A stretch of 64,000 nt of DNA from Olivibacter sp. XZL3 (GTDB lineage: Bacteria > Bacteroidota > Bacteroidia > Sphingobacteriales > Sphingobacteriaceae). This document shows positions 7,976-23,810 of this stretch, in pieces. Each line of letters starts with the position of its first letter. Position 1 is the stretch's first letter. The translations under genes were made by a program, and so were the position numbers. The notes below the pieces were generated by a model. It did not search any database, had not been told where the DNA came from, and saw only the letters and a list, made by a program, of their open reading frames with translations. The DNA lies in assembly GCF_004368405.1 (NCBI RefSeq), contig NZ_SBJH01000004.1, forward strand, positions 186,001 to 250,000, given 5' to 3'.

Positions 7976-8005
7976 TTGCTGATTTATAATATTTAGCTAT
8001 ATTTG
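7976..8005 (+). promoter_or_regulatory. Bacteroidota sigma-A promoter for the MFS-isomerase-susCD operon
   Basis: TTG at 7976-7978, a 19-bp spacer, then TATATTTG at 7998-8005 match the Bacteroidota consensus (TTTG near -33, TAnnTTTG near -7). Transcription would start near 8011, directly at the palindrome described below. Confidence 0.7.
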
Positions 8006-8012
8006 TATCAAC

Positions 8013-8037
8013 AAACTTAACGCACTAAGATAAGTTT
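8013..8037 (+). promoter_or_regulatory. Palindromic operator overlapping the predicted transcription start
   Basis: The arms AAACTTA (8013-8019) and TAAGTTT (8031-8037) form a perfect 7-bp inverted repeat with an 11-bp centre. Within it lies TTAACGCACTAAG (8017-8029), itself a small CTTA-N6-TAAG palindrome and present again, inverted, at 9481-9493. A position just past the -7 box suits a repressor site. Which regulator binds is unknown; the GntR protein at 21342-22097 is one candidate. Confidence 0.55.
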
Positions 8038-8060
8038 GCCAATGCTAACCAAAACAAGTT

Positions 8061-8177
8061 ATGAAGTATAAAGAATATCCTATTGGCATGGTGGCAGGCC
8101 TGGATCCTTTCAACCGCGGTTTGTTTAAACGGTATCCGCAGTACATAAAAGAAGTTAATACCTATTCATTATTATGA
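8061..8177 (+). CDS. Short 38-codon ORF in the operon leader, hypothetical
   Basis: An ATG-to-TGA frame of 38 codons lies between the promoter and the MFS gene and ends 19 bp before the MFS start. The peptide starts MKYKEYPIGMVAGLDPFN and ends EVNTYSLL. Its composition looks protein-like rather than random, but I recognise no family. It could be a small leader protein, a remnant of a lost gene, or chance. No clear ribosome binding site is visible. Confidence 0.3.
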   Translation: MKYKEYPIGMVAGLDPFNRGLFKRYPQYIKEVNTYSLL

Positions 8178-8196
8178 ACCCTATAATCGCCGCCTT

Positions 8197-9429
8197 ATGC
8201 TAACCCGTAATATCCGTTGGATCATTGTAAGCTTGGTGTTTATCGCAACAGGCCTCAATTTTCTCGACCGTCAGATACTATCTATTACCATCATTAAGAT
8301 CCAGAAAGAGTTCAATATATCCGATATTCAATATGGATGGGTGAATACCAGCTTCTTGGTCAGCTACGCCTTGATGTTCACCGTGGGCGGCCGATTAATA
8401 GAAAAATTCGGTGGCAAAAAGGGCTTGGCAGTAGCCGTCGGCGTCTGGTCCCTTGCCAGTGCCCTACATGGATTTATGACGCACTTTTCGCACCTGGTCG
8501 CTTCGCGCTTTCTACTCGGTTTCGGCGAAGGAGCGTGCTTCCCGGGAGCCGCCAAAACCGTGAATGAGCTGTTTGCAAAAAAAGAACGTGCCCTAGCAAA
8601 TGGCATTGCGATCGGCGGCTCGGCGATCGGGGCAGTGATTGCACCTGTCCTCACCATTTGGCTATCTAATGCTTACGGATGGCGATGGTGCTTTATTATA
8701 GCCGGATTAATAGGGCTCGTTTGGCTCGTAATTTGGCTTCTTGTGCAGTGGCCTAAAAAAGAAACCTTGCCGGAAGTGGCAAAACTGCCAACGACCGTAA
8801 AAACATTGCCATTCTCTCAGATATTTAAAAACCGGTCTGCATTGCTCATCTTGCTTATCCGCTTTCTGCTAGATCCTGTATTCTATTTTTTTATGTTCTG
8901 GATCCCCAAATATCTCAACGAAACCAAGCAAGTTTCCTTTGATGACATCGGGCGCTTTTTATGGATACCGTTCTTAGCCCTCGGCTTCTCCAATATACTA
9001 GGAGGCTATTTGTCGGACAGACTGATTAAGAAGAAATACTCGGTTAATAAGGCTAGGAAGACGATTATGGGATTTGCCGCACTATTGACCATGTCGGCCA
9101 TGCTGGTACCGCTTGCAACAAATCTAAACGAGGCCATTGTACTGATGTCGATACTCTTATTTGCACATGGATTTTGGATTACCAATTACATCACAGCCAT
9201 TTCAGACATCTTTGAAGACACAGCGACATCCACGATCGTAGGGCTTTCTGGCACTGCGGGTGCTATTTCAGGCCTCATCGTTAACCCACTCATCGGATTG
9301 GTGGTTCAACAGTACACATACACGCCTTTATGGTTACTGTGCGGCCTTATGTATCCGATAGCCTTTATAATCGTCGCATTTTGCATCGATCTTAAACCAC
9401 GAGCACCGAAGTTCTCAACGCTCAATTAA
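8197..9429 (+). CDS. MFS transporter, ACS/hexuronate-type
   Basis: This is a 410-residue inner-membrane carrier with twelve predicted helices. The first helix carries NFLDRQILS, the motif seen in anion:cation symporters of the ExuT/GarP type. The loop GGRLIEKFGGKKG matches the MFS signature after helix 2, and GFGEGACFPGAAKTVNELF after helix 4 is typical of the ACS family. Members move hexuronates, aldonates or related sugar acids with protons. It is the first full gene after the promoter at 7976-8005, with a 93-bp gap to the isomerase gene that contains a second copy of the operator motif. It probably takes up the monomer released by the periplasmic enzymes of this operon; whether that is a sugar acid or a neutral sugar is open. 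Confidence 0.85.
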   Translation: MLTRNIRWIIVSLVFIATGLNFLDRQILSITIIKIQKEFNISDIQYGWVNTSFLVSYALMFTVGGRLIEKFGGKKGLAVAVGVWSLASALHGFMTHFSHLVASRFLLGFGEGACFPGAAKTVNELFAKKERALANGIAIGGSAIGAVIAPVLTIWLSNAYGWRWCFIIAGLIGLVWLVIWLLVQWPKKETLPEVAKLPTTVKTLPFSQIFKNRSALLILLIRFLLDPVFYFFMFWIPKYLNETKQVSFDDIGRFLWIPFLALGFSNILGGYLSDRLIKKKYSVNKARKTIMGFAALLTMSAMLVPLATNLNEAIVLMSILLFAHGFWITNYITAISDIFEDTATSTIVGLSGTAGAISGLIVNPLIGLVVQQYTYTPLWLLCGLMYPIAFIIVAFCIDLKPRAPKFSTLN

Positions 9430-9480
9430 ACCAGATAAAAAATTCAATAGGAACAACGTACAAGTATTGCAAAAAAACAA

Positions 9481-9493
9481 CTTAGTGCGTTAA
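9481..9493 (-). promoter_or_regulatory. Second, inverted copy of the 13-bp motif TTAACGCACTAAG
   Basis: CTTAGTGCGTTAA at 9481-9493 is the exact reverse complement of 8017-8029. It lies 29 bp before the isomerase start. The outer palindrome arms of the first site are not repeated. A shared repressor with two operators flanking the MFS gene, possibly looping, is one explanation. Confidence 0.5.
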
Positions 9494-9522
9494 CTGAAAA
9501 TATAAACTAGTAACAAAAGCGA

Positions 9523-10974
9523 ATGAAAAACTTTAACAGAAGAGAAAAAACACGACCGAGAATAGGCGTATTTGGCGTTGGCTACGCAAAATACTGGCCG
9601 CAATTTGAGGGTCTCTATCAACAGATGCTTGATAAGCAAGCGGTATTCATCGAAAAAGTAAAAACGTACGACATTGAGCTCTTTGAGTTCGGCATGGTAG
9701 ATGACGTGATGGGCGCCTATGCCCTAGTGCCGAAACTCCAGGCAGGGAACCTTGATCTTATTTTCTGTGATATGCTCACCTATGCCACCTCCAGTACTTT
9801 TGGCGCTATTATAAGAGCATTAGATATCCCTATGGTTTTGGTAGCGCTCCAACCGGACAAGGCGCTCGACTACGGTAGGGCTTCAACGCATCAACAACTT
9901 TACAACGATGACATCTGTTCCTTGCCGGAGTTCACGGGCGTAGCCGTTCGCATGGGAAAGAAAGCCCCAGATGTCATTATCGGTACATTACATGACGATC
10001 CCGCCGCCGAAGAAGAAATAAAGAAATACTGCGATATCGCCCGTGTATTGCACGACCTCAAAACAGCACGTATTGGCCATATCGGCCATCCCATAGAAGC
10101 GATGTTGGATATGCATTCGGATGCAACCATGTTAACGGCCCACTTCGGCCTCCACATTGTGCAGTGCGAAGCACATGAGATTGTCAATAAATATAATGAA
10201 GTTTCGTCGGCTGCTGTCGACTACGAAAAAGACAAGATCCTCGGTTTCTTCGATACACCGGACCCGGTGTCGGATCCCATCTCCGAAAAACTGCGCGACA
10301 CAGACCTGGAGGTTGCTGCACGTGTATCCGTCGCCTTGCACACCTTCGTCCGGGAGAAAAACTTGACGGGATTGGCTTATTATTACGAAGGTGAAGAAAA
10401 CAGCTTAACCCGGCAGGTGATGACCAACCTAATCGTAGGCAACTCGTTGCTCACCGGTGCCGGCTTTCCGATGTGCGGCGAGTCGGATCTGAAATGCTGC
10501 ATCGCTATGCTGATTATGGAACGCTTGGGGATAGGCGGTAGCTTCGCCGAATTCCACCCGGTCGACTTCCAGGAGAACTTTGTACTTGTTGGCCATGACG
10601 GTCCGCACAACATTTCCATAGCAGAAGGCCAACCGGTGCTGCGAAGCTTGAAAAAGTACCATGGAAAACCCGGCTTTGGTGCCGGCGTCGAATTTAAAAT
10701 AAAGGAGGGTCCGATCACCATGCTAAGTATTACTTCAACTTATGAAGGAAAAATAAAATTTGTCATAGCAGAAGGAATGTCTGTAGAAGGCCCCATTCCT
10801 CCCACCGGTAACACCAATACGCGGGGCTATTTTAAACCAGATGTACGAACCTTTTTAAAAAAATGGGTAAAAGAGGGGCCAACGCATCACTTTGCCCTTG
10901 GCATTGGACATCACGCACAGACGTTAAAAAAAATAGGGGAATATTTAGCGATCGAAGCAGTGATCGTCGAATAA
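9523..10974 (+). CDS. L-arabinose/L-fucose isomerase superfamily protein (AraA-like)
   Basis: This is a 483-residue cytoplasmic protein without a signal peptide. The N-terminal half (PRIGVFGVGYAKYWPQFEG, DLIFCDMLTYATSS) follows the substrate-binding fold of ketol isomerases. The C-terminal half carries the metal site. By eye against AraA, the ligands would be E320 (CGESD), E343 (AEFHPVDF), H358 (VLVGHDGPH) and H455 or H456 (THHFALGIGHH). It would convert an aldose to a ketose using Mn2+. It sits between the MFS carrier and susC, 40 bp upstream of susC, so it probably acts on the imported monomer. It is shorter than classical AraA (about 500 residues) and diverges in several loops, so the sugar cannot be named. 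No kinase or epimerase gene is next to it. Confidence 0.78.
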   Translation: MKNFNRREKTRPRIGVFGVGYAKYWPQFEGLYQQMLDKQAVFIEKVKTYDIELFEFGMVDDVMGAYALVPKLQAGNLDLIFCDMLTYATSSTFGAIIRALDIPMVLVALQPDKALDYGRASTHQQLYNDDICSLPEFTGVAVRMGKKAPDVIIGTLHDDPAAEEEIKKYCDIARVLHDLKTARIGHIGHPIEAMLDMHSDATMLTAHFGLHIVQCEAHEIVNKYNEVSSAAVDYEKDKILGFFDTPDPVSDPISEKLRDTDLEVAARVSVALHTFVREKNLTGLAYYYEGEENSLTRQVMTNLIVGNSLLTGAGFPMCGESDLKCCIAMLIMERLGIGGSFAEFHPVDFQENFVLVGHDGPHNISIAEGQPVLRSLKKYHGKPGFGAGVEFKIKEGPITMLSITSTYEGKIKFVIAEGMSVEGPIPPTGNTNTRGYFKPDVRTFLKKWVKEGPTHHFALGIGHHAQTLKKIGEYLAIEAVIVE

Positions 10975-11014: not shown

Positions 11015-14000
11015 ATGAAATCTTTTATTAAACTCAAGCTTGTCTACCTGCTGATCTTCTTATTTATAAATAAGATCAGTTTAGGGCAGACGCAAATCAG
11101 GGGAAGGGTTGTCTCATTAGAAGACGGACAAGCCTTAGCAGGTGTGAGTATTACCGTTAAAGGGGGCAACACCTCTACAAAAACCGGTGAAAACGGTCAG
11201 TTCGTCATTGCAGCGACTAGTGGCGCCAGTCTCGTTTTCACCTATGTCGGCTTTGAGCGTCGGGAAGTGCTGGTGCGCGATGAAAACAACCTGACGGTCA
11301 GTTTGACACCAACTTCACAAATGCTCGAAGATGTCGTAGTAGTGGGCTACGGCACGCAACGAAAGCGCGACTTAACAGGTTCCATTGTAAATTTGTCAGG
11401 AAGGGACTTAATACCAACGCCGGCGGCTAGTTTCGACCAATTGATGCAGGGCAGAGTGGCCGGCGCGCAAATCACACAAACCACCGGCTCCCCAGGGGGA
11501 AACGTTAATGTGGTTATACGCGGTATCAACTCAATCACCGGAGGTAATCAGCCGCTATACGTGATTGACGGCTTTGCCATTGGCGCCGGCGGCAGCGGAT
11601 CGGACGCGTCGAGTTTTAACGGAAACTCTTACTCTTCCAGCGGTATGGCCAACAATACCGTATCAAAGATTAATCCGCTCAGCACCATCAACCCTTCAGA
11701 CATCGAGTCGATCGAAATCTTAAAAGATGCTTCGGCTACGGCTATCTATGGTTCCCGGGGCGCAAACGGTGTGGTTATCATTACGACCAAGCGAGGCAGG
11801 AAAGGGCAATCGAGCATACAGGTGGAAGCTTCTGGCGGCTTGCAGCAGGTAGCTAATAAGCTGGATATGATGAATGCCCAGGAGTTCGCTCAGTTTGTGG
11901 CGGAGGGACGCGATAATGCCTGGGTTTTAGCCGGTGGAAACGCAAGCGATCCGAACGAGGCTCGAAATACCGCCACCATCGTCAAACCCGAATTTCGCAA
12001 CCCTAGCGCCCTTACTACCAATACCGATTGGCAGGACGTTATTTTCAGAACCGCTCCCGTGCAAAACTACCTATTCTCTACCAGCGGTGGCCAGCAGGTC
12101 GTCTACAACATCTCCGGAGGTTACTTCGATCAACAAGGTATCATCAAGGGATCGGATTTCAAGCGTTTCAATCTACGAAGTAACCTAGACGTGGATCTGA
12201 CGGAGAAGCTAAAGCTGGGTGTCTCTATCGCCGGCTCTCATTCTTATGGCGATTTCGCCAGAGCCGAGGGTCACCTAGGTCAACGAGGCTTGATTGCTAC
12301 GGCATTAGCAAACTCCCCAGCCCTGCCGGTTTATAATTCCGACGGAACTTACACGTCGGAGCTTTTAGACCCTTACGGTGTGCCTGTTGAAAATCCCTTA
12401 CTCGTCATTGACGAATTTAGCGACAAGCGCTATAATACGCAGATTTTCAACAACAATTACCTCGAATATAAAATAAACGACGATCTCTCAATTAGAACTT
12501 CCATCGGCATCAATTATAATTCCGGTAACACGAAATTGTGGAAGTCGTCCGAGATTGGCCAATGGGGTGTTAAAACCAGTCCTGCGACGGCAGGCGTCAA
12601 TCAACAGACGTCCATCAATTGGTTGAACGAAAATACGATTACCTATAACAAGCAACTTAATGAACGACACCGTATCAATGCCGTTGCGGGTTTTTCGGCT
12701 CAAAAAGACCGATTTGAAATCTTGCAGGCCGGTGCTACAGACTTTCCTACTGATTATATCCATTACATTGGCGGTGGAAATGTTAATGCCGGCAATAACT
12801 ACATCTCCGAATGGGCTATGCTCTCCATGTTTGGAAGGATTAACTATACTTTTGCTGACAAATGGCTGTTTACCGGAACAGTACGCCGCGATGGAAGTTC
12901 TCGCTTTGGTGCCAACAACCGTTGGGGAACCTTTCCTTCTGCCTCGGTTGGATACCGATTGTCTGAAGAGGCCTTCATGAAAAACCAACAAGTGATCAAT
13001 GACCTGAAGCTGCGGGTGAGCTATGGTGAATCGGGTAATAACCTCATTGGCAATTACGCTCACATCGGCTTACTGGGTACTACCTCTTATGTAAACAACG
13101 GCGCACCTATTCTAGGGATTGTGCCAGCAGGGCTTGCTAATGCCGAGTTGACTTGGGAACGCTCGCAGCAAACAAACTTAGGTTTGGATATCGCTTTCTG
13201 GAACAGTCGACTGAATCTCAGTGTCGATCTTTATCGCAACCTGAAGAAAGACCTGTTGCTCAACAACGCCTTACCGGCCATTTCCGGCTTCCTTACCGCC
13301 ACCCAAAACATCGGTGAACTGGAAAATAAGGGATTGGAAATCGCTTTAAATACGGAAAATATCCGTAGCGACAATTTCTCCTGGACTACTAATTTCAACA
13401 TCAGCTTTAATAAGAATAAGGTATTGAAATTAAGCACGACAGGTTCGCGTATCAGCAATTCAACCTATCAAATTACGGAAGTAGGCAAACCTATTTCTAG
13501 CTTTTTCTTGTTAAACGCTATCGGCGTATTTAGAGATTGGGATGAGGTTAACTCCTCGCCTTTGGTTACACCCAATACACAACCGGGCGACGTAAAGTTT
13601 GAAGATGTAAACGGCGATGGCCGTATAAGTGACGACGACAAAACTATTGTTGGCAACCCTATGCCCGATTATACTTTCGGATTCAATAATACGGTTCGAT
13701 ATAAAAACCTGACCTTAAACGTCTCGGTGGTGGGCAGCCAGGGCCAGGAGGTTTATTTTCAGGGAGGTGAAATTTTATTGAACAGCGCGGGCGTACAAAA
13801 TCAGCTGGCTTTGGTAAATGATCGTTGGCGCTCGCCGGAACAGCCAGGAGCCGGTTTAGTGCCTAGAGCTATTCGAAGTGACTATGCTCGCGGACAACAG
13901 TTTAGCTCGCGTTACTTATTTGACGGTTCTTTCGTTCGGATCAAAAACATCAACCTGGCCTACCGCTTGCCGCAACGTTTGCTTAACAAATTAAATATCC

Positions 14001-14173
14001 CCGGTTTAACTGTATACGGGGATATTGCAAACGCTTTCACCTTTACCGACTACCCTTCCTACGATCCGGAGGTGAGTTCTACCGGCGATAACATAGCGGC
14101 AAGCGGCGTCGATTATTTCGGCTATCCGTTGGCGCGTACTTTCACACTAGGGATTCGTGCCACTTTAAAATAA
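11015..14173 (+). CDS. SusC/RagA family TonB-linked outer-membrane transporter
   Basis: The protein has 1052 residues: signal peptide to about 24 (ISLGQ), carboxypeptidase-regulatory-like domain about 26-100, TonB-box region LEDVVVVGYGTQ about 104-115, and plug with PLYVIDGFAIG and IESIEILKDASATAIYG. A serine- and glycine-rich plug insertion (GAGGSGSDASSF) is present. The barrel ends ARTFTLGIRATLK. A late DVNGDGRISDDDK block is the usual calcium-binding-like loop of this family. It lies third in a plus-strand operon after the MFS and isomerase genes, with susD 130 bp downstream. It imports the glycan worked on by the 844-residue protein, SGNH esterase and GH3 enzyme of the same operon. Confidence 0.95.
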   Translation: MKSFIKLKLVYLLIFLFINKISLGQTQIRGRVVSLEDGQALAGVSITVKGGNTSTKTGENGQFVIAATSGASLVFTYVGFERREVLVRDENNLTVSLTPTSQMLEDVVVVGYGTQRKRDLTGSIVNLSGRDLIPTPAASFDQLMQGRVAGAQITQTTGSPGGNVNVVIRGINSITGGNQPLYVIDGFAIGAGGSGSDASSFNGNSYSSSGMANNTVSKINPLSTINPSDIESIEILKDASATAIYGSRGANGVVIITTKRGRKGQSSIQVEASGGLQQVANKLDMMNAQEFAQFVAEGRDNAWVLAGGNASDPNEARNTATIVKPEFRNPSALTTNTDWQDVIFRTAPVQNYLFSTSGGQQVVYNISGGYFDQQGIIKGSDFKRFNLRSNLDVDLTEKLKLGVSIAGSHSYGDFARAEGHLGQRGLIATALANSPALPVYNSDGTYTSELLDPYGVPVENPLLVIDEFSDKRYNTQIFNNNYLEYKINDDLSIRTSIGINYNSGNTKLWKSSEIGQWGVKTSPATAGVNQQTSINWLNENTITYNKQLNERHRINAVAGFSAQKDRFEILQAGATDFPTDYIHYIGGGNVNAGNNYISEWAMLSMFGRINYTFADKWLFTGTVRRDGSSRFGANNRWGTFPSASVGYRLSEEAFMKNQQVINDLKLRVSYGESGNNLIGNYAHIGLLGTTSYVNNGAPILGIVPAGLANAELTWERSQQTNLGLDIAFWNSRLNLSVDLYRNLKKDLLLNNALPAISGFLTATQNIGELENKGLEIALNTENIRSDNFSWTTNFNISFNKNKVLKLSTTGSRISNSTYQITEVGKPISSFFLLNAIGVFRDWDEVNSSPLVTPNTQPGDVKFEDVNGDGRISDDDKTIVGNPMPDYTFGFNNTVRYKNLTLNVSVVGSQGQEVYFQGGEILLNSAGVQNQLALVNDRWRSPEQPGAGLVPRAIRSDYARGQQFSSRYLFDGSFVRIKNINLAYRLPQRLLNKLNIPGLTVYGDIANAFTFTDYPSYDPEVSSTGDNIAASGVDYFGYPLARTFTLGIRATLK

Positions 14174-14303: not shown

Positions 14304-15728
14304 ATGAAAAAGTACTGTTTAAGCATCTGCACCGTTTGCCTATTAGCAATAAGTGCCTGTAGCAATTTTTTGGAACTGGAACCCGATAACCAGATCAATC
14401 AGAACAATTTCTATAAAACGGAAGAAGATTTTGAAACGTCGATGGTAGGTATTTACGCCACTTTAAGAAACTTATACGCGCGCGATATTTTTTTCATTAC
14501 GGAATTAACAACCGACAATACAGAAATTTCCATTCCAACATCGTCTCTTGCGGAAGTGGAATTTGATGAAATGACTATCACCGCAACCAATACCATTGTC
14601 CAAAGCGCCTGGAACAGTGCCCTTTTTACGGTTGCACGATGTAATGTACTCTTGAACCGCATTCAGGAGGCTTCCATCAATGAGGAAGCTAAAAACAGGA
14701 TATCGGCAGAAGCGCGGTTTATGCGTGCCTTAAGTTACTTCTTCCTAGTGCAGGCTTTTGGAAACGCTCCCGTTACCGATGCCGAGTTTGAAAGTCCGTC
14801 GCAGGTTTTCTCGACCGACATTACCTTAAGGCCCAGTGAAGAGGTATATCAACTCATCATCAACGACCTAGTCACAGCCGAAAGCCAGATACCAAACACC
14901 TTAAACGCCAATAAAGGCGAAGCTTCCATTGGCGCTATCAAAACCTTATTAGGGAAGGTATATCTTGCGCATCACGACTATACAGAAGCCGCAGCCAAAT
15001 TAAAAGAAGTTATCGATTTAGGTCATTACAGTCTGGTAGACGATTACAAAAGTCTCTTTCAGCCTGGCAACGAAAATCTGGCGGAATCTATTTTTGAGTT
15101 TAAATTCACTTCAGGGGTTAATCTGGGAAACACTTATTCCTCCCTCTTTACGCCTGCTATTATCGGTTTATTGCCCGACAGGCAGTCTGGATCAGGCCGT
15201 ATCAACCCAACGCTAAGCATCATACAGGCCTATGAACCGGGTGATGTACGCAAAGCGGCATCCGTAGGGGATTCCATCCTTTCGGATGTCGGCATGGTTT
15301 ATAGCAGATATGGCCTCAAATTCGTAGATATGACTACCAATAATCCACTCGACGGCGCCGCTAATTTCACGGTATTGCGCTATGCCGATGTCTTGCTTAT
15401 GTATGCCGAAGCACTGAACGAGCTCGGTGCTGCTGACGTCTTCACCTATCTTAATCTGGTGCGATCGCGAGCCCATTTGACGGCCTTGCAAGAAACTGGA
15501 CAGGAGGCGCTGCGCAGTGCCATAGCGCAGGAAAGACGTGTCGAATTTCTCTTTGAGGCACAGCGTTGGTTCGATTTGAAACGTACAGGCAAAGCGCAGG
15601 AAGTGGTTAACGCTTATTATGCCGAAAAAGGCTTACGTTTTTCGGTAGAGGACCATGAATTGTTGATGCCGATTCCGCGGCGCGAAATTGAAATAAATCC
15701 TAACTTACAACAGAATCCAGGTTATTGA
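14304..15728 (+). CDS. RagB/SusD family nutrient-uptake lipoprotein
   Basis: This is a 474-residue lipoprotein with lipobox ISAC (Cys19), followed by the SusD signature SNFLELEPDNQINQNNFYKTEEDFETSM split over residues 20-48. Helical repeats around AEARFMRALSYFFLVQAFGNAP and the C-terminal RRVEFLFEAQRWFDLKRTG block are complete, and the end IPRREIEINPNLQQNPGY is standard. It partners the SusC at 11015-14173. Its stop lies 17 bp before the start of the 844-residue secreted protein, so the two are likely cotranscribed. Confidence 0.94.
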   Translation: MKKYCLSICTVCLLAISACSNFLELEPDNQINQNNFYKTEEDFETSMVGIYATLRNLYARDIFFITELTTDNTEISIPTSSLAEVEFDEMTITATNTIVQSAWNSALFTVARCNVLLNRIQEASINEEAKNRISAEARFMRALSYFFLVQAFGNAPVTDAEFESPSQVFSTDITLRPSEEVYQLIINDLVTAESQIPNTLNANKGEASIGAIKTLLGKVYLAHHDYTEAAAKLKEVIDLGHYSLVDDYKSLFQPGNENLAESIFEFKFTSGVNLGNTYSSLFTPAIIGLLPDRQSGSGRINPTLSIIQAYEPGDVRKAASVGDSILSDVGMVYSRYGLKFVDMTTNNPLDGAANFTVLRYADVLLMYAEALNELGAADVFTYLNLVRSRAHLTALQETGQEALRSAIAQERRVEFLFEAQRWFDLKRTGKAQEVVNAYYAEKGLRFSVEDHELLMPIPRREIEINPNLQQNPGY

Positions 15729-15745: not shown

Positions 15746-18280
15746 ATGATGTATACGAAAAATAGATGTCGAATGCTGCTGGCTTGGTGTTTTATGCTGA
15801 CATTAAATTGGACTCAGGCGTTCGCACAAATAACAACGAGCCTAACAGGGAAACGCTTCGCTAACATCACATTAGAAGCCTCTCTGAAGCCTTTTAAGCA
15901 AAAAGACAACAAGTACTATCAAATGGTGGCAACCGAACTGTTTACGCAGTGGCAATCTCTTTTGCGCCATACAGATACGGTTTCGGTATTGCTATGGGTG
16001 GCCGACGGCTCCGAAATACTCAACTACCAAGGTAAGTCGGATCAGTCCCTGGAATGGGCTAAATACATCGGCAATCCGAACACAGATCGCCCTGTCGGTT
16101 CCGGCCCGAAAGAGCTCTCGCTCCACGAACGGGCCTACCTTTATCAGGGGGCCCCGCCTAATTTCACCTATGGCGATCTTAAGCAAATTGTAAACACCCT
16201 CAAGGAAGTAGGAAAGCATCTCACAGGCAAGCCAATACGTATCGGTGCTACGTTCGACCCTGGGCCTGAATTTGCGAAATCACCCTTTAAATACGAGAAA
16301 CATCCGGAAATCCTCGAGGGCAGCGCCATGGGCCATAAAAGCTTTGTCTATAGTTACGCCACTTTAAAGGCCGACAAGCAGAGCTATGCCGGCTATCCGG
16401 AAGGTATACCGGCCAACACACCTTTCGGCACTTTCTTTGGCCGACAAAGTCAGCACTTTTTACGCGACCTGGGCTTCGACTATATTTGGTTCAGCAATGG
16501 GTTCGGCTTCGGCATGGAGCCTTGGTCGTCAACCGGCGTTATTTTCACTGGTACCGGTTTCAACAGCGACAAGCTTGCTGACACCAAAGCAAAGATTATT
16601 AACTTTTGGAAACTTTTCCGGCAAGAGTGCCCCAACTTCCGCATCGAAACCCGGGGCACCAATCTCTCTACCGGTATTGATTTGGCGAAAGACGGTGTGG
16701 ATTTAAGAACCATCTATAAAGGAGGCTTTAATATACTGCCCCCACCCAACTCGCCATGGGCTGCCCTCGATGGCGATTTCGGACTGGAATTGGTTGGTTA
16801 TATGTCGCGCATGGCTGAGCTGCCGGGCGACCACTATATTTTTAGATATTATACGCACGACCCTTGGTGGTTAAACAGCCCTTGGCTGGATCGTTACGGC
16901 CGCGAACCGCATGACATTTACCTACCGATGAGTGTGAGCCGTATCGATGCAGAGGGAAACATCGCTTTGCCAACCCATTTGAATTTTCTGACAGTGGATG
17001 ACTCGTTTGGCAATATGCCGACACAGGTGCCCGACGAAGTGACGCCTCACATCCTAAAAGCCCGTTATGATAGCCCAGATGCGCCTGGCCCACTCGTGTG
17101 GATATATCCTTTTGAGGAGTATCATCATTGGGCCAATCAGCAAAAGAACCTGGAAGAGATCTACTATGGCGACTGGTTTATTCGCCAGGCTATCAATAAT
17201 GGTCTGCCCTTAAACACCGTTATCAGTAGTCGTTCTTTCTCTTCTGTAAAACGTGAAAAACCAGGGCTCTTCGATCAATCTGTTCTGATCAGCATCGTAC
17301 CCGATCCCGGCTCTGACTATGAAAAGGCGCTAATCAACCATGTTCAACAGGGAGGAAAAGTCGTTATTTATGGCCCTGTTAACAGGGCAAGCGACCGCTT
17401 TCTGGACTTGCTGAATTTGGAGAAGGTCGACCCTCTGGACGGCGAATTTCAAATAAGCAGAGCCTTCGTTAACGACCATTTAATGCAAGCTTATCCCAAT
17501 AAAATCCGTCATCAGGCCCTCTTTTCGGGAGCGGGTATCAGCAGCAAAGTAAAAGATGTCCATGATACATCCACAAAAGTATATGCACAGTTTAAGCAAG
17601 GTAATGCCAGTAGAGATGTGGTGATTGCAAGAGCACTGCCGACCTGGAAAGGGGGCGCCGTCGCCTATATCAGCGGCACCAATTCGAGTCACTTTTCGGG
17701 CGGGCGACTTCTAAATCCGGACAACCCGAATGAGTACTTCATCGGTCCACTCTATATGCGTTATATCCTTCAAGCCTTCGGAATTGACATCAATTTCGAG
17801 AAAGCGGATCCAGCAATCAAAAGTCCGGTACTAGGCATCTCCAGAAACCGAAACGCCTACTTTTTTTCCGGTTATGCGCCCAACACCACCGTAAAACACC
17901 TGTTTAAGCTTCCACAAGGGGCACCTCTACTAAACGGTTACGATACCGAGTTGATCAATGGCAGCAGCAGTTATATATTCCCAACCGCCTCACATCGGGA
18001 ATGCCGTGTATTTATTGAACAACAAGACGGCATTGTCTCCTCTAAAGAAATGCATTCGGGGGAACTAGGTATTAGCAGACGCTTAAAGGTCAGCGGACTA
18101 AAAAATGCCACGGTACGGATATATCCGCCGGATACCACAAAAGATAGCGCCATCCATTTTTATCTGAACAGCGATTATCCTTGGAAAGAAGGTAAAATAC
18201 CTTTTAAAAAAGGCGATCAGAAATTCGGACATCACTACGTCGTTGAACATATTAGCGGAGATCTCGTGGTCTCCTGGTGA
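15746..18280 (+). CDS. Large exported protein of unknown family, candidate glycosidase
   Basis: The protein has 844 residues with a signal peptide ending QAFA|Q near 27. I do not recognise a CAZy family. The first 400 residues look like a TIM-barrel hydrolase: RFANITLEASLKPF (about 38-50), SVLLWVADGSEIL (80-92), IGATFDPGPEF (167-176), FDYIWFSNGFGFGMEPW (244-260), FRIETRGTN (299-306) and a tryptophan-rich HDPWWLNSPW (371-380). Conserved-looking acidic residues D87, E90, D171, E175, E258 and E301 are catalytic candidates. Around 515-555 a flavodoxin-like stretch (VLISIVPDPGSDYEKA, QQGGKVVIYGP) resembles the trimerisation or GATase-like domain of GH42-type enzymes. It lies 17 bp after susD and 13 bp before an SGNH esterase, so a glycan-active role is likely. 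Confidence 0.6.
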   Translation: MMYTKNRCRMLLAWCFMLTLNWTQAFAQITTSLTGKRFANITLEASLKPFKQKDNKYYQMVATELFTQWQSLLRHTDTVSVLLWVADGSEILNYQGKSDQSLEWAKYIGNPNTDRPVGSGPKELSLHERAYLYQGAPPNFTYGDLKQIVNTLKEVGKHLTGKPIRIGATFDPGPEFAKSPFKYEKHPEILEGSAMGHKSFVYSYATLKADKQSYAGYPEGIPANTPFGTFFGRQSQHFLRDLGFDYIWFSNGFGFGMEPWSSTGVIFTGTGFNSDKLADTKAKIINFWKLFRQECPNFRIETRGTNLSTGIDLAKDGVDLRTIYKGGFNILPPPNSPWAALDGDFGLELVGYMSRMAELPGDHYIFRYYTHDPWWLNSPWLDRYGREPHDIYLPMSVSRIDAEGNIALPTHLNFLTVDDSFGNMPTQVPDEVTPHILKARYDSPDAPGPLVWIYPFEEYHHWANQQKNLEEIYYGDWFIRQAINNGLPLNTVISSRSFSSVKREKPGLFDQSVLISIVPDPGSDYEKALINHVQQGGKVVIYGPVNRASDRFLDLLNLEKVDPLDGEFQISRAFVNDHLMQAYPNKIRHQALFSGAGISSKVKDVHDTSTKVYAQFKQGNASRDVVIARALPTWKGGAVAYISGTNSSHFSGGRLLNPDNPNEYFIGPLYMRYILQAFGIDINFEKADPAIKSPVLGISRNRNAYFFSGYAPNTTVKHLFKLPQGAPLLNGYDTELINGSSSYIFPTASHRECRVFIEQQDGIVSSKEMHSGELGISRRLKVSGLKNATVRIYPPDTTKDSAIHFYLNSDYPWKEGKIPFKKGDQKFGHHYVVEHISGDLVVSW

Positions 18281-18293
18281 CATTATATATTTT

Positions 18294-19007
18294 ATGAAAA
18301 CAGCAAGATATATCGTCTACAGCTTATTTCTGTTTAGTGTGAGCTGGGCTCAAGAAACAGACCGCATCTCTCCGGTCGGCTATCTCGATTCGGTTAAGCA
18401 CATGCTCCACGCCAAATTCCCGAAAAACCGAACTATTAACCTCGTGTTTCACGGTCATTCTGTCCCTTCCGGATACTGGGCCAACTCTGAAGTACATACC
18501 TTGCAGTCTTATCCATATCTCTTATTAAAAAAGCTCAAAGCGCAATATCCCTATGCAGTAATTAATGTTATCCTTACTTCTATCGGAGGAGAGTGGGCCG
18601 AAAAAGGAGAAAAACGCTTTGCTACAGACGTGCTGCCGCATAAGCCCGACGTGCTCTTTATCGACTATGCCCTGAACGACATGGGGGTGGGCTTGGCGCG
18701 GTCTAAAATTGCATGGAGCAAAATGATCGAAGCAGCAAAAGAAAAAGGCATCAAAGTAGTCCTCCTCACTCCTTCACCCGATCAACGACAAAACCTGATC
18801 GATCCAAACTGTCAGTTGGCCCAGCATGCGCAGCAAATCCGCACTCTAGCACGGCAGTACCATATTGGCCTTGCCGATCCTTACCAGCGTTTTGTGCAGA
18901 TCGCAACGAAAGAGGACAGCTTAAAGGAGTATATGTCGCACGTTAATCACCCCAACGAAGCGGGGCATCAAGTGATTGCCGACGAACTGTTCAAATGGTT
19001 TCAATAA
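18294..19007 (+). CDS. Exported SGNH/GDSL-type hydrolase (probable carbohydrate esterase)
   Basis: From the ATG at 18294 the protein has 237 residues with a signal peptide ending SWAQ (about 20). A longer frame from 18243 would bury that signal peptide inside 17 extra residues. Block I is FHGHSVPSGYW with the nucleophile S56. Block III is DYALNDMG. Block V is NHPNEAGH, where the catalytic histidine is present but the usual Asp three residues before it is a His (SHVNHPN). Related exported SGNH enzymes with a VNHPN ending exist, so it is probably active. In a PUL such proteins remove acetyl or other acyl groups from glycans. It is 13 bp after the 844-residue protein and 17 bp before GH3. Confidence 0.8.
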   Translation: MKTARYIVYSLFLFSVSWAQETDRISPVGYLDSVKHMLHAKFPKNRTINLVFHGHSVPSGYWANSEVHTLQSYPYLLLKKLKAQYPYAVINVILTSIGGEWAEKGEKRFATDVLPHKPDVLFIDYALNDMGVGLARSKIAWSKMIEAAKEKGIKVVLLTPSPDQRQNLIDPNCQLAQHAQQIRTLARQYHIGLADPYQRFVQIATKEDSLKEYMSHVNHPNEAGHQVIADELFKWFQ

Positions 19008-19024: not shown

Positions 19025-21337
19025 ATGAAAACGATCTTATATCCATTTTTCAGTATCGCTTTATCGATACTTTTAAGCCTCCAAGCCCAGGCACAAGCAC
19101 CTCTCCCGCAATTGGGACATGCTTCCACACAACAGGTCATCGATGCCATGACCAACGAAGAAAAAGCACTGATGGTAACTGGCGCGAAACGGCGAGAAGT
19201 AGTTCCTACGCCCTTGCCCGGCTATCCGCAAAAAAATATAGAGGGTGTTGGAGGTTACACCTACCCCTTCGTGCATCTCGGTATCCCTGCTGTTATGTTG
19301 TCCGACGGACCGGCAGGTTTGCGCATTGCACCCCGACGTTATGGAGACACCAGCTATTATTACTGCACGGCATTTCCGGTTGCCAATTTGGTCGCTTCCA
19401 GCTGGGATCCCGACGTTGCAAAGGCGATAGGAGAAGCCATGGGACAAGAAGCATTGGCCTACGGTGTCGATATATTATTGGCACCCGCATTAAACATACA
19501 CCGAAATCCACTGGGTGGCCGTAACTTCGAATATTACTCGGAAGACCCGCTTATATCCGGAACAATGGCTGCCGCTGCAATTAAAGGCATCCAGTCGCAA
19601 GGTGTGGGAACATCGGTAAAACATTTCGCTGCTAATAATCAAGAAACGAACCGACGCACCATTAATACTGTCCTCAGCGAACGCGCTTTACGGGAGATCT
19701 ACTTAAAAGGTTTTGAAATTGCAATAAAAGAAGGGAAACCCTGGACGGTCATGTCGTCTTATAATAAAATCAATGGCTGCTATACTTCGCAAAGCACGGA
19801 GCTATTGGAAGATCTCCTGCGCAAAGAATGGGGATTTGACGGCTTTGTACTGAGCGACTGGTATGGCGGTGATAATGCCGTTGCGCAAATGAAAGCCGGA
19901 AACGACCTGTTGATGCCGGGTTTAGCCGCTTGGTCAAACAGCATTGACAGCGCCTTAGAAAACGGTGCCTTAGCTGCTGAAGAAGTTGACCGCAATATTC
20001 ACCGCATCCTGGATGTAATCCAACTCACACCCACTTTTAAAAATCACCCGGTTACCAATAAACCCGATCTGAAGAAACATGCGGAACTGGCTAGGGAGGC
20101 TGCCGCCGAATCATTGGTATTACTTAAAAACCAAGGCGCTACTTTGCCTCTTGCCAGCAGACAGAAAACGGCGCTATTTGGCAACTATTCTTATAAACTG
20201 ATGGTGGGAGGCACAGGAAGTGGTATGGTTAACAATGCTTATAGCGTCTCCCTGGCACAGGGACTCCAAACAGCGGGTTTCGTAGTGGATGAAGATTTGG
20301 CAAACCAATATTTGAGCTATCTGGAGAAAGGCAAAAGAAAACTCGACAAACGTGACAGCTTAATCACCGCCATGCCAAAACTGGACAGTATTTTAAGCGA
20401 ACTACCAATAAGTACGCAGCAGATACGTAAACAAGCGGCGGCAAGCGATGTGGCGATCATTTCCATCATGCGGGTGTTCGGCGAAGGGGGTGACCGTAGA
20501 CGCAACGATTTTTATCTAACAACTGCAGAACAAGACTTGATCACTCGCGTTTCAACGGCCTTTCACGAAAGAGGAAAAAAGGTGGTAGTCGTACTGAATA
20601 TCGGTGGCGTTATAGAAACCGCTAGTTGGCGAAACGAAGTGGACGCCATTCTTTTGGCTTGGCAGCCGGGACAGGAAGGAGGGCATGCTCTAGCCGATAT
20701 TATTAGTGGTCGGATCAACCCCTCCGGCAAACTTACCACAACTTTCCCCTTACACTACGAAGACGTACCTTCCGCTGCTAACTTCCCGGGCACGCCCATG
20801 GAAAACCCGTCGGAGGTGATATACGAAGAAGGTATCTATGTAGGCTATCGTTATTATGACAGTTATCAAGTGCCAACTGCCTATCCTTTTGGTCATGGTC
20901 TCTCTTACACCCGGTTTGCCTATGATAAACCGAAACTTAGCGCAAAGAGCTTCACTGATACCCTTCAAGTGTCCATCTCTCTTAAAAATAAGGGGACAGT
21001 GGCAGGCCGGGAAGTAGTACAGGTTTACCTTCGGGCACCAGGGAAAAGTATGCACAAACCTACTAAAGAATTGAAAGCCTTTGCCAAAACTAACTTACTG
21101 GCGCCCGGTGAAACACAACAAGTGAATATTCAGCTTGGTCCGTCCGCCCTAGCTTCCTTTGACAGTCAAACAAGCGCCTGGGAAGTTGAAGCAGGACAGT
21201 ATGAGCTGTATTTCGGCAGTTCCAGCCAAGACATTAGGGCAAAAGTGGCATTTAACGTACCGAAAGCTTTTACGGTGCAACGCGTTAAAAAGCTGTTGGC
21301 ACCGCGCACTGAAATAGCCGAATGGACAGGAAAATAA
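19025..21337 (+). CDS. Glycoside hydrolase family 3, exported beta-glycosidase
   Basis: The protein has 770 residues from the ATG at 19025, with a signal peptide ending AQAQA (about 24). A start at 18995 would overlap the esterase gene and delay the signal peptide. The GH3 N-terminal barrel shows SDGPAGLR, SVKHFAANNQE and the nucleophile D278 in VLSDWYGG. The second domain has RVFGEGGDR with E486 as probable acid/base, and a fibronectin III-like domain ends the protein (GREVVQVYLRAPG, LKAFAKTNLLAPGE). Family members release terminal beta-linked glucose, xylose or arabinofuranose; the specificity here is not readable. It closes the plus-strand operon and ends 4 bp from the convergent GntR gene. 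Confidence 0.93.
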   Translation: MKTILYPFFSIALSILLSLQAQAQAPLPQLGHASTQQVIDAMTNEEKALMVTGAKRREVVPTPLPGYPQKNIEGVGGYTYPFVHLGIPAVMLSDGPAGLRIAPRRYGDTSYYYCTAFPVANLVASSWDPDVAKAIGEAMGQEALAYGVDILLAPALNIHRNPLGGRNFEYYSEDPLISGTMAAAAIKGIQSQGVGTSVKHFAANNQETNRRTINTVLSERALREIYLKGFEIAIKEGKPWTVMSSYNKINGCYTSQSTELLEDLLRKEWGFDGFVLSDWYGGDNAVAQMKAGNDLLMPGLAAWSNSIDSALENGALAAEEVDRNIHRILDVIQLTPTFKNHPVTNKPDLKKHAELAREAAAESLVLLKNQGATLPLASRQKTALFGNYSYKLMVGGTGSGMVNNAYSVSLAQGLQTAGFVVDEDLANQYLSYLEKGKRKLDKRDSLITAMPKLDSILSELPISTQQIRKQAAASDVAIISIMRVFGEGGDRRRNDFYLTTAEQDLITRVSTAFHERGKKVVVVLNIGGVIETASWRNEVDAILLAWQPGQEGGHALADIISGRINPSGKLTTTFPLHYEDVPSAANFPGTPMENPSEVIYEEGIYVGYRYYDSYQVPTAYPFGHGLSYTRFAYDKPKLSAKSFTDTLQVSISLKNKGTVAGREVVQVYLRAPGKSMHKPTKELKAFAKTNLLAPGETQQVNIQLGPSALASFDSQTSAWEVEAGQYELYFGSSSQDIRAKVAFNVPKAFTVQRVKKLLAPRTEIAEWTGK

Positions 21338-21341
21338 TGGA

Positions 21342-22097
21342 TTACTTTATTGAAGGCTCGTACTGTGGATGTGCCACCACCGCAAATTTATACTTATCGC
21401 CCCGGTAATAGGACTGCTCGATTTCGATTACCTCTTCTGTGGGTGTTAGTACTACACCGTCTAAAGCAAATACCGCGATCGGTGTATCCACCTCAAAATT
21501 GTTGTGGCTGTCTTTAGGATGCAGAATATCGGCGCTTAAAGTTTGCTTAATATCATTAATTTTTAATTTATAATGATCTTCATATGTTTTAAAATAAGAA
21601 ACGTCCGTAGATAATCGATCGATCTTTGGGCATAGTTGCAGAGAAATATAACGAACCTCGTCTTTTAACACATCATCATCGGCATATCGGAGCAGATGAA
21701 TCTTCAATACAGGTCCTTGAATAATATAATGCTTACCCATAATAGCAGAAGAAACGCCTTCCTTCAGGATCGTTTTCTCCAAAAGCACGTTTCTGGGGGT
21801 GAAGCCCTCTACTTTGAGGCCTTCATTAAAACCTCTACGGGTTGCATCAATAGAACCCAAGGTACGCAAGAGCTGATGACCGGAAGTGCGGTTCAGCACA
21901 AAGGTGCCTTTTCCTTTTATTCTCCGCGCCCACCCTTTGGATTCAATCTCGAGCAGACTTTTACGGGCAGTCGTATTGCTGATTTGATATATTTTGATCA
22001 GCTCATTTTCGGAAGGAACCTTATCACCCGGCAACAGTTCGCCCGATATAATTTTTTCGATAATCTCCTCACTTATGGCGATAAATTTGGGCTTCAT
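21342..22097 (-). CDS. GntR-family (HutC/UTRA) transcriptional regulator
   Basis: The 251-residue protein has a winged helix at 5-70 (IISGELLPGDKVPSENELI, ISNTTARKSLLEIESKGWARR, then KGKGTFV) and a C-terminal UTRA-like effector domain ending IEIEQSYYRGDKYKFAVVA. UTRA domains bind small molecules such as sugar phosphates and release the repressor from DNA. It lies between the GH3 gene (convergent) and the GH140-like gene (divergent), so it probably controls that gene and perhaps the long operon. The divergent promoter at 22178-22207 contains TTTAGTGTAA, loosely like the TTAGTGCGTTAA motif near the MFS gene, but the spacing differs. Confidence 0.88.
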   Translation of the reverse strand: MKPKFIAISEEIIEKIISGELLPGDKVPSENELIKIYQISNTTARKSLLEIESKGWARRIKGKGTFVLNRTSGHQLLRTLGSIDATRRGFNEGLKVEGFTPRNVLLEKTILKEGVSSAIMGKHYIIQGPVLKIHLLRYADDDVLKDEVRYISLQLCPKIDRLSTDVSYFKTYEDHYKLKINDIKQTLSADILHPKDSHNNFEVDTPIAVFALDGVVLTPTEEVIEIEQSYYRGDKYKFAVVAHPQYEPSIK

Positions 22098-22207: not shown

Positions 22208-22367
22208 TGTAACCAGATCTAAAAATAACACCATGAACAGTCAATATATAATAAAGGGATTTACGTCATTAACATCCAGCAATCCCTTCACCGTTTTTTC
22301 AACGGAGAAATACGCCGTTGATTTCCCCTTGCTTTACACCGAACGGAAGCGCTTAACAGCGGCCGTC

Positions 22368-23810
22368 ATGCAACAAACCGTAACTTGTACCATACTTTTC
22401 CTATTGCTATTTATCTATCCGAAAAGTGCCTTCAATCAATTGCATGTGAGTCCTGGTACAAACTATATCCAGCAGGCAGACAGTCCTTTTTTATGGCTAG
22501 GCGACACTGCCTGGGAGCTCTTTCATACGTTGAGCATAGAGGATGCCAGCTACTATCTACAAACCCGCGCAGCACAGGGCTTCACGGTTATTCAAGCGGT
22601 CATTTTATCGGAACATGATGGCCTTAAGTCTCCTAACTTTTATGGCGACCTGCCCTTTAAGAACCTGCAACCCGAGCAACCCAATGAACGATACTTTAAA
22701 CATATCGATGAGGTGATTGATCAAGCGGCCCGGTTAGGCCTTCAAGTAGCTTTATTGCCGACATGGGGCGACAAAGTTTTATCCAATCGGCCCGGAGCGG
22801 GGCCCGTGATTTTTACTGAAGCCAACGCTTATCACTATGGCAAGTTTCTCGGTAGGCGCTACCGCAATAAGCCCATCATCTGGATGCTAGGAGGCGATCG
22901 CAACGTAAGCAATCTAGAGGTAAAAGCAATTTGGGATGCAATGGCTAGGGGTTTACAAGCCGGTGACGAAGGAAAACATCCTATAACCTACCATCCTGCG
23001 GGCGAGTCGACCTCCGCCCTTTGGTTTCATAATGCGTCGTGGCTTGCCTTTAACAGCTATCAAAGCGGGCACGCTAAGCGGTTTTTCCCCGTCTATCAAA
23101 TGGCTGCGAAACATTTACTGCTACAACCCCTTAAACCCTTCATTGAGGCAGAACCCGCTTACGAAGGTATCCCGATACGGTTTTGGGAATTTATAGATTG
23201 GAACAACCCGCAGCGAGTTCCCTCAGCTGTTCTGGACGAGAATAAATGTCTTGCCGATACATCGTATTTTAAATATGGCTATTTCACGGATTACGATGTC
23301 CGTGTACAAGCTTACTGGAACTTTCTATCCGGAGCCTGTGGTTATACTTATGGCAACAACGCCATCTGGCAATTTTTTGAGCATAAAGGCTTTTTCCAAA
23401 TCCCCTGCTTAAGTGACTGGAAAACCGCTTTACATAGTCCCGGAGCGAACGGTGTCAAACACCTAAAAAAGCTCTTCCTGGCGCGCAATTTCGCCAAGCT
23501 GACACCTGATCAATCGCTCATCTTTGGATCAGCGGGTAAGGACAGCACCTATATCTGTGGAGCCGTCGCAAATGACCACAGTTTCGCCTTGGTTTACGCC
23601 GCTTTAGGACAAGCCTTTCACGTAGATCTCAACAAAGTCAAGGGGACGGTTCAAGCCTATTGGTACCATCCAAAAAATGGCACAACCCATTTTATTGCTT
23701 CTTATCCTGATCGTGCCATCACCCTTTTTACGCCGCCAACGAATGGCAACGGCAATGATTGGTTATTGGTGTTAGATAGTGAAGAGGCTGATCTGCCGGC
23801 GATCGTATAA
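22368..23810 (+). CDS. GH140-like exported glycosidase (DUF4038 type)
   Basis: From the ATG at 22368 the protein has 480 residues and starts with a signal peptide (FLLLFIYPKSAFNQ). An upstream ATG at 22233 in the same frame adds 45 residues before it and would give a shorter leader from the predicted promoter, so the start is uncertain. The DUF4038 barrel begins FLWLGDTAWELFHTLS (41-56). Catalytic candidates are D177 in WMLGGDRN and E262 in FIEAEPAYEG, in the positions proposed for GH140 apiosidases. A C-terminal DUF-type beta domain ends the protein. GH140 is known from rhamnogalacturonan-II breakdown, but DUF4038 proteins are broader than that, so the sugar is uncertain. The GntR gene is divergent and a terminator follows. 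Confidence 0.8.
   Translation: MQQTVTCTILFLLLFIYPKSAFNQLHVSPGTNYIQQADSPFLWLGDTAWELFHTLSIEDASYYLQTRAAQGFTVIQAVILSEHDGLKSPNFYGDLPFKNLQPEQPNERYFKHIDEVIDQAARLGLQVALLPTWGDKVLSNRPGAGPVIFTEANAYHYGKFLGRRYRNKPIIWMLGGDRNVSNLEVKAIWDAMARGLQAGDEGKHPITYHPAGESTSALWFHNASWLAFNSYQSGHAKRFFPVYQMAAKHLLLQPLKPFIEAEPAYEGIPIRFWEFIDWNNPQRVPSAVLDENKCLADTSYFKYGYFTDYDVRVQAYWNFLSGACGYTYGNNAIWQFFEHKGFFQIPCLSDWKTALHSPGANGVKHLKKLFLARNFAKLTPDQSLIFGSAGKDSTYICGAVANDHSFALVYAALGQAFHVDLNKVKGTVQAYWYHPKNGTTHFIASYPDRAITLFTPPTNGNGNDWLLVLDSEEADLPAIV

Follow-up and report, generated by a model that had tools for sequence, protein, structure and literature searches.

What reaction, if any, is carried out by the 844-residue protein encoded at positions 15746..18280 of a 64,000-nucleotide stretch of the Olivibacter sp. 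XZL3 genome (hereafter, the window)? A first-pass annotation had proposed that this ORF, which begins with ATG on the + strand and is called the target gene below, encodes an exported member of a new glycosidase family, located between susD and an SGNH esterase/GH3 pair. The ORF and its surroundings are as described there. The susD stop at 15728 is separated from the target ORF by 17 bp, and 13 bp lie between the target stop and the likely ATG (18294) of an SGNH/GDSL hydrolase gene (PF13472), which is followed by a GH3 gene (PF00933/PF01915). The ORF is real rather than a chance frame, given that a scan of genome contigs returned 104 pattern stretches, from which 96 relatives were confirmed and 80 were kept.

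The genes around the target have the operon-like order MFS transporter, isomerase, SusC, SusD, target, SGNH hydrolase and GH3, all on the + strand. Their partners elsewhere were counted by tblastn (E 1e-10) around the 80 loci, some of which are cut by contig ends. The MFS transporter (8197..9429) best matches the NCBIfam D-galactonate transporter subfamily, below cut-off at 228 of 395 bits, and a similar gene is found at 49 of the 80 loci. It is followed by a sugar isomerase of the AraA/FucI superfamily (9523..10974) in which no signal was seen, and then by a SusC-type TonB-dependent receptor (11015..14173) and a SusD-type protein (14304..15728), both recognized by Pfam and each recurring at 59 loci. 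Downstream of the target are the SGNH/GDSL hydrolase, a possible esterase (18294..19007; 47/80 loci), and the GH3 enzyme (19025..21337; 5/80 loci), whose best NCBIfam match, to an alpha-L-arabinopyranosidase, is below cut-off (556 of 1300 bits). A GntR/UTRA regulator identified by Pfam is encoded on the − strand (21342..22097; 44/80 loci), and the PF13204 (apiosidase-like, GH140-type) enzyme encoded beyond it (22233..23810, + strand) possibly belongs to the same system as the target.

The synteny from the MFS gene through the isomerase and SusCD to the target recurs among the loci. Partners identified there by Pfam also include GH106 enzymes, the commonest catalogued glycosidase neighbours (36/80 loci), along with sulfatase-like proteins (19 loci) and BD-FAE-like esterases (9 loci). 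On other contigs of the window's genome, three open frames give seven GH106 matches. Given that the partner glycosidases vary by lineage, no single substrate emerges. Apiose was considered as the common sugar and set aside, since GH140-type genes occur at 6 of the 80 loci only.

Relatives of the target are 43–77% identical to the window protein in alignment A1, which comprises 45 of 78 sequences (the 49 kept at <86% identity, minus L005, L033, L037, L047 and L073, plus L071). By record title, most relatives are from Bacteroidota (Spirosoma, Larkinella, Dyadobacter, Pontibacter, Cyclobacterium, Pedobacter, Parabacteroides and others), and the others are MAGs titled Hydrogenedentota, Lentisphaerae, Armatimonadetes, Fimbriimonadaceae, Acidobacteriia, Phycisphaerales, Verrucomicrobia and Clostridiales. 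The distribution is patchy: with the window's genome counted, the target occurs in 2 of 60 relatives, in 13 of 399 genomes sampled from the window's taxonomic family and, at full length, in 1 of the 395 genomes of a phylum sample. Four members of this last sample match at E ≤0.1, where the sole full-length match is the window's own and the remaining three span 54–60 positions, two of them with internal stops. At two Clostridiales loci, a target judged by eye to be signal-less is placed after a PF00528 permease cluster and the isomerase; one of these homologues (L081) begins MYSFEYPKNMHVGR. A further homologue (L198:10544-13066), with 35% identity across 780 aligned positions, is encoded directly 3' of the same kind of isomerase, and its genome also carries a closer target copy (L074). 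Arenibacter palladensis has two target-family genes in tandem (L024, one matched at 8001-10466 and the other in the ORF after it). On a contig whose title is Verrucomicrobia (MAG) there is a partial target 68% identical to the window protein (L073:7493-9013), a copy that would reflect either transfer or a binning error.

The Pfam HMM search that had been recommended for this protein, and the sequence searches run alongside it, place it in no family. Pfam gave nothing above cut-off for the window protein (three sub-threshold matches at E ≤1), NCBIfam gave no match, and phmmer against the PDB found no relative at E ≤10, including among the solved members of GH164, GH5, GH153 and GHL10. A profile of 45 family sequences has a sole PDB match, which is unrelated (E 0.77). 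Across these 45 members, 14 Pfam families were matched in all. Weak matches to GLMA_2nd appear in 20 members at E ≤1 (best E 0.009), and the window protein scores 11.2 bits against its cut-off of 27.7; DUF4350 is matched in four members (best E 0.0095) and Baculo_FP_2nd in two (best E 0.00011), the latter being taken as chance. Membership in GH42 found no support: PF02449 is absent both at E ≤1 for the target and from the 14 families, and hhalign against seven GH42 proteins returned a probability of 1.6%. Membership in GH106, the family of the neighbouring alpha-L-rhamnosidases, was likewise unsupported (PF17132 absent for the target and the 45 members; hhalign against 17 neighbouring GH106-type proteins, probability 0.1%). 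No publication attributable to the family was found in the literature searched by titles and the starts of abstracts.

An export signal had been reported for the protein, and it is visible by eye at approximately residues 1–27 (15746..15826), with the cut probably after residue 27. Beyond this signal, an AlphaFold2 model built from A1 (pLDDT 90.5, pTM 0.92) predicts a TIM barrel (approximately residues 38–441; 15857..17068), a Rossmann/GATase-like domain (approximately 448–688; 17087..17809) and C-terminal beta domains (approximately 689–844; 17810..18277), all encoded on the + strand. The boundaries are estimates, taken for the barrel from DSSP and the ranges of fold matches, and the last ~80 residues fall beyond most of these matches. 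The predicted second domain, together with the weak GLMA_2nd matches, bears out an earlier impression of a GATase/trimerisation-like region near residues 515–555.

The architecture closest to the model is that of GH42/GH164-type glycosidases. Foldseek with the full model ranked GH42 4oif first (E 1.3e-17, TMq 0.43, 12% identity), followed by GH164, the GH5 trimer Op5Man5 and, lower, GH167, and the GH42 domain order of barrel, Rossmann-like domain and beta domain is found in the fold matches and in our single-chain model. Over the three-domain span, VIA-align matched the beta-1,2-glucosyltransferase 7x87 (Z 15.2, rmsd 6.2, 545 aligned) and GH42 5e9a (Z 14.7, rmsd 6.2, 532 aligned); over the barrel, it matched Cwp19 (Z 17.0, rmsd 4.9, 298 aligned) and PgaB (Z 15.9, rmsd 4.2, 296 aligned). 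Most near fold matches besides 7x87 are hydrolases. When predicted alone, the barrel is less certain (pLDDT 77.8). Cwp19 again leads its VIA matches (Z 16.0, rmsd 4.8, 304 aligned), among which glycosidase barrels are numerous and a single pyruvate kinase appears, and Foldseek places GH13 enzymes on top, with ene-reductases among the matches. No evidential weight is given to a family's failure to appear among VIA matches, and a viral fold library gave no useful match to the target. As judged from the predicted model, the fold matches are remote, and many different barrels score alike. Architecture cannot fix the family, since GH5 and GH164 members form GH42-type trimers with insignificant sequence similarity, according to PMC8233224, and these set a precedent for the fold outside GH42.

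Six acids (D87, E90, D171, E175, E258 and E301) had been singled out in the first-pass annotation, with E258 and E301 picked for mutation and taken here as the proposed catalytic pair. The first four proved to be invariant in all 77 homologues counted (77 of 81 rows, from the 80 loci plus the window, after L051, L054 and L067 were dropped for frame or stop breaks and L073 as partial). The other two vary: position 258 is Glu in 71 of the 77, Ser in four and Asp in two, and position 301 is Glu in 32 and Gln in 45. Conservation of this kind does not support the proposed pair. Among 78 sequences, 15 Asp, Glu and His residues are invariant (E44, D87, E90, D171, E175, H186, E188, D312, D372, D382, D418, E431, D476, H589 and E752), and a further three (H371, E348 and D390) are invariant in 77 and replaced in the 35% homologue. 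The invariant acids include D87 and E90 after barrel strand 2 (16004..16015), D171 and E175 after strand 3 (16256..16270), D372 after strand 7 (16859..16861) and D418 after strand 8 (16997..16999), all on the + strand. Judged from the alignment, these six would be better catalytic candidates than E258 and E301, and we infer that acid and base are to be sought among such invariant residues.

With loop, helix and strand segments set manually from DSSP, invariant positions in the 78 sequences account for 54 of the 217 beta-to-alpha loop positions, 4 of the 46 bottom-loop positions, 8 of the 103 helix positions and 8 of the 43 strand positions. The difference between the catalytic-face loops and the helices plus bottom loops (12/149) has a Fisher P of 2.7e-5. 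The structure prediction suggested as a check on the original proposal has returned a glycosidase-type fold in which invariant residues are concentrated on the barrel's catalytic face. The tryptophan-rich stretch mentioned in that proposal was also found, as THDPWWLNSPW at residues 370–380.

In clan GH-A enzymes, barrel strand 4 ends with Asn-Glu. Two glutamates, which we take to be the GH42 catalytic residues, are both invariant in the seven GH42 proteins aligned. In the target, strand 4 ends with S250-N251-G252 (16493..16501, + strand; invariant in 78/78 sequences, with the strand assigned from DSSP order) where GH42 has Asn-Glu, and strand 7 runs into Tyr-Thr-His-Asp with no Glu, both equivalences being drawn from strand order only. 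The predicted barrel thus appears to lack counterparts of both GH-A catalytic glutamates, in which case catalysis would need another set of acids.

This active-site arrangement would set the target apart from its nearest structural matches. The GH42 beta-galactosidases and alpha-L-arabinopyranosidase share with it the order barrel, Rossmann-like trimerisation domain, beta domain, but their glutamates are without apparent counterpart, profile homology is absent, and the target has extra C-terminal strands. The trimeric exo-beta-mannosidases Bs164 (GH164) and Op5Man5 (GH5) also share the GH42-type architecture, but the PDB profile search finds no sequence match to them, and Op5Man5 uses Glu on strands 4 and 7, according to PMC8233224, for which no counterpart is seen in the target. 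Cwp19 (GHL10) and PgaB (GH153) give the top VIA matches, for the barrel, and the fragments that matched consist of a barrel alone. PMC5765458 describes Cwp19 as lacking the strand-7 Glu, as the target appears to, and both proteins as having an important Asp at the GH42 acid/base place, whereas strand 4 of the target ends with Ser-Asn-Gly.

The isomerase encoded upstream is the only PF02952 match in the window's genome. Its residues E320, E343, H358 and H456, which align with the metal ligands of AraA, are invariant in all 11 sequences aligned. It is unlikely to be the cell's L-arabinose isomerase, since a strong PF11762 match of 230.7 bits is present elsewhere in the genome. In a tree of 67 isomerases, the 52 from target-family loci, including that of the window, are separated from 15 others with support of 100/99; one of the 15 (L132) is on a very long branch. 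At L013 and L080, open antisense frames of >500 codons span the isomerase gene, and the isomerase itself was located there by tblastn.

An isomerase gene lies within the fetched flank at 55 of the 80 loci. Whole-genome searches covered 24 of the 25 loci without a flank copy (L073 was left out), and 18 of these genomes carry the isomerase elsewhere at 60–85% identity. One of the other six has fragments only, at 36–44% identity, and five have none, and all six are MAGs by title. In the Pontibacter genome G449, the isomerase gene and the target share a contig and are ~15 kb apart, apparently as parts of a single extended cluster that also has GH5, GH140-type genes and two SusCD pairs. Among the 399 family-sample genomes, all 13 with the target fall within the 19 that have the isomerase at E ≤1e-150 (hypergeometric P 3e-20, with relatedness left out of account; 6 and 7 of 25 when counted by genus). 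Isomerases from the 24-genome and 399-genome searches are not in the tree, and their assignment to the clade is from identity only. Among the 394 other phylum-sample genomes, 16 have sister-type isomerases, none of them above 40% identity. The target is tied near-obligately to one clade of AraA/FucI-type isomerases. Six genomes of one genus (L181–L186) have the isomerase and MFS genes side by side without the target gene, which suggests that the pair can use free sugar alone and that the target is one release route; no SusCD genes were found in the 6–20 kb fetched around these pairs.

Clues to the identity of this sugar come from the sister isomerases. Six of their 15 loci (L118, L119, L124, L125, L126 and L127) have GH106 or GH78-type genes nearby and nine do not, where the GH78-type label reflects clustering with the one protein tested. 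One such run (L124:3066-17828) includes GH78-type genes, an AraA/FucI-type isomerase, RhaT, a RhaD-dehydrogenase fusion, a RhaI match and an FGGY kinase, with RhaT and the fusion above cut-off and the RhaI match below it (501.8 bits against 646.75). Going by these matches, the run is apparently an L-rhamnose operon that holds both the RhaI match and a second isomerase. A role as rhamnose isomerase is doubtful for the window isomerase, since the sister isomerase shares this gene run with the RhaI match. Given the rhamnose-linked neighbours, a 6-deoxyhexose is a reasonable first candidate, and our guess is that the released sugar is a 6-deoxyhexose or a close relative. The sugar may also be a different one, in view of the MFS type, the varied glycosidases that accompany the target and the lack of such neighbours at 9 of the 15 sister loci; transporters of this MFS type more often carry anionic sugars than deoxyhexoses.

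On balance, we judge it probable that the target is an exo-acting glycosidase from a family that is not in the libraries searched (Pfam, NCBIfam and the PDB) and that it feeds the importer-isomerase pair. The original proposal of a new glycosidase family is partly supported, by the SusCD operon, the predicted fold and the lack of a Pfam match above cut-off, an NCBIfam match or a PDB sequence match better than chance, but not in its choice of catalytic pair. Several other explanations draw on the same observations. The place of 7x87 among the closest three-domain matches, like the seeming absence of the canonical GH-A acid pair, would fit a glycan-acting barrel enzyme that is not a hydrolase, such as a transglycosylase, phosphorylase or lyase. 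We consider this unlikely, given that the export signal and the adjoining esterase-like, GH106 and sulfatase genes indicate breakdown, and that most other near fold matches are hydrolases. The apparent loss of the canonical glutamates could also mark a catalytically dead, sugar-binding GH42-like protein. This we hold to be very improbable, since so many catalytic-face positions are invariant, many of them acids, and signal-less Clostridiales versions are ill-suited to the role of a surface binder.

It is also quite unlikely, in our estimation, that the target is a distant member of an existing, possibly recent CAZy family for which Pfam and NCBIfam have no model. The comparison covered Pfam, NCBIfam and the PDB, and published GH families are numbered to at least 195. 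Against this, the 45-sequence profile finds no PDB match better than E 0.77, and the papers found on recent families concern galactosaminidases for GH191, beta-1,2-glucanases for GH192–GH194 and a sulfated mannan for GH195 (PMC13063451). The literature searched on GH190–GH195 yielded nothing on GH190.

If the target is indeed an exo-acting glycosidase, oligosaccharides would be imported by SusCD and trimmed by lineage-specific partners (GH106, GH3, GH140-type enzymes, esterases and sulfatases), and the exported target would then remove the terminal sugar from the trimmed oligosaccharides. Catalysis might rely on acids other than the clan pair, with D171/E175, D372, D87/E90 and D418 as candidates. 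The linked MFS transporter would carry the freed sugar into the cytosol, where the linked isomerase would turn it into a ketose. The two Clostridiales versions point to an exo mode, since they have no visible signal and are encoded downstream of a permease cluster and the isomerase, which fits action on imported oligosaccharides. Hydrolysis, the exo mode, the catalytic residues and the order of these steps are what we infer from the data presented herein.

A more specific proposal, which we offer only tentatively, is that the target represents a new glycosidase family of GH42 architecture and non-GH-A catalysis that is dedicated to a widespread, unrecognised sugar, which the linked MFS transporter and isomerase would import and isomerise, and that the partnership with the isomerase has been retained in several bacterial phyla. 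If our interpretation is true, it would add an enzyme family, spread across several phyla by record title, that is unnamed in the libraries searched, and a GH42-like fold without the clan glutamates would be a useful case for studying changes of mechanism in barrel glycosidases. It would also define a glycosidase-importer-isomerase unit for which a single isomerase assay could identify the sugar.
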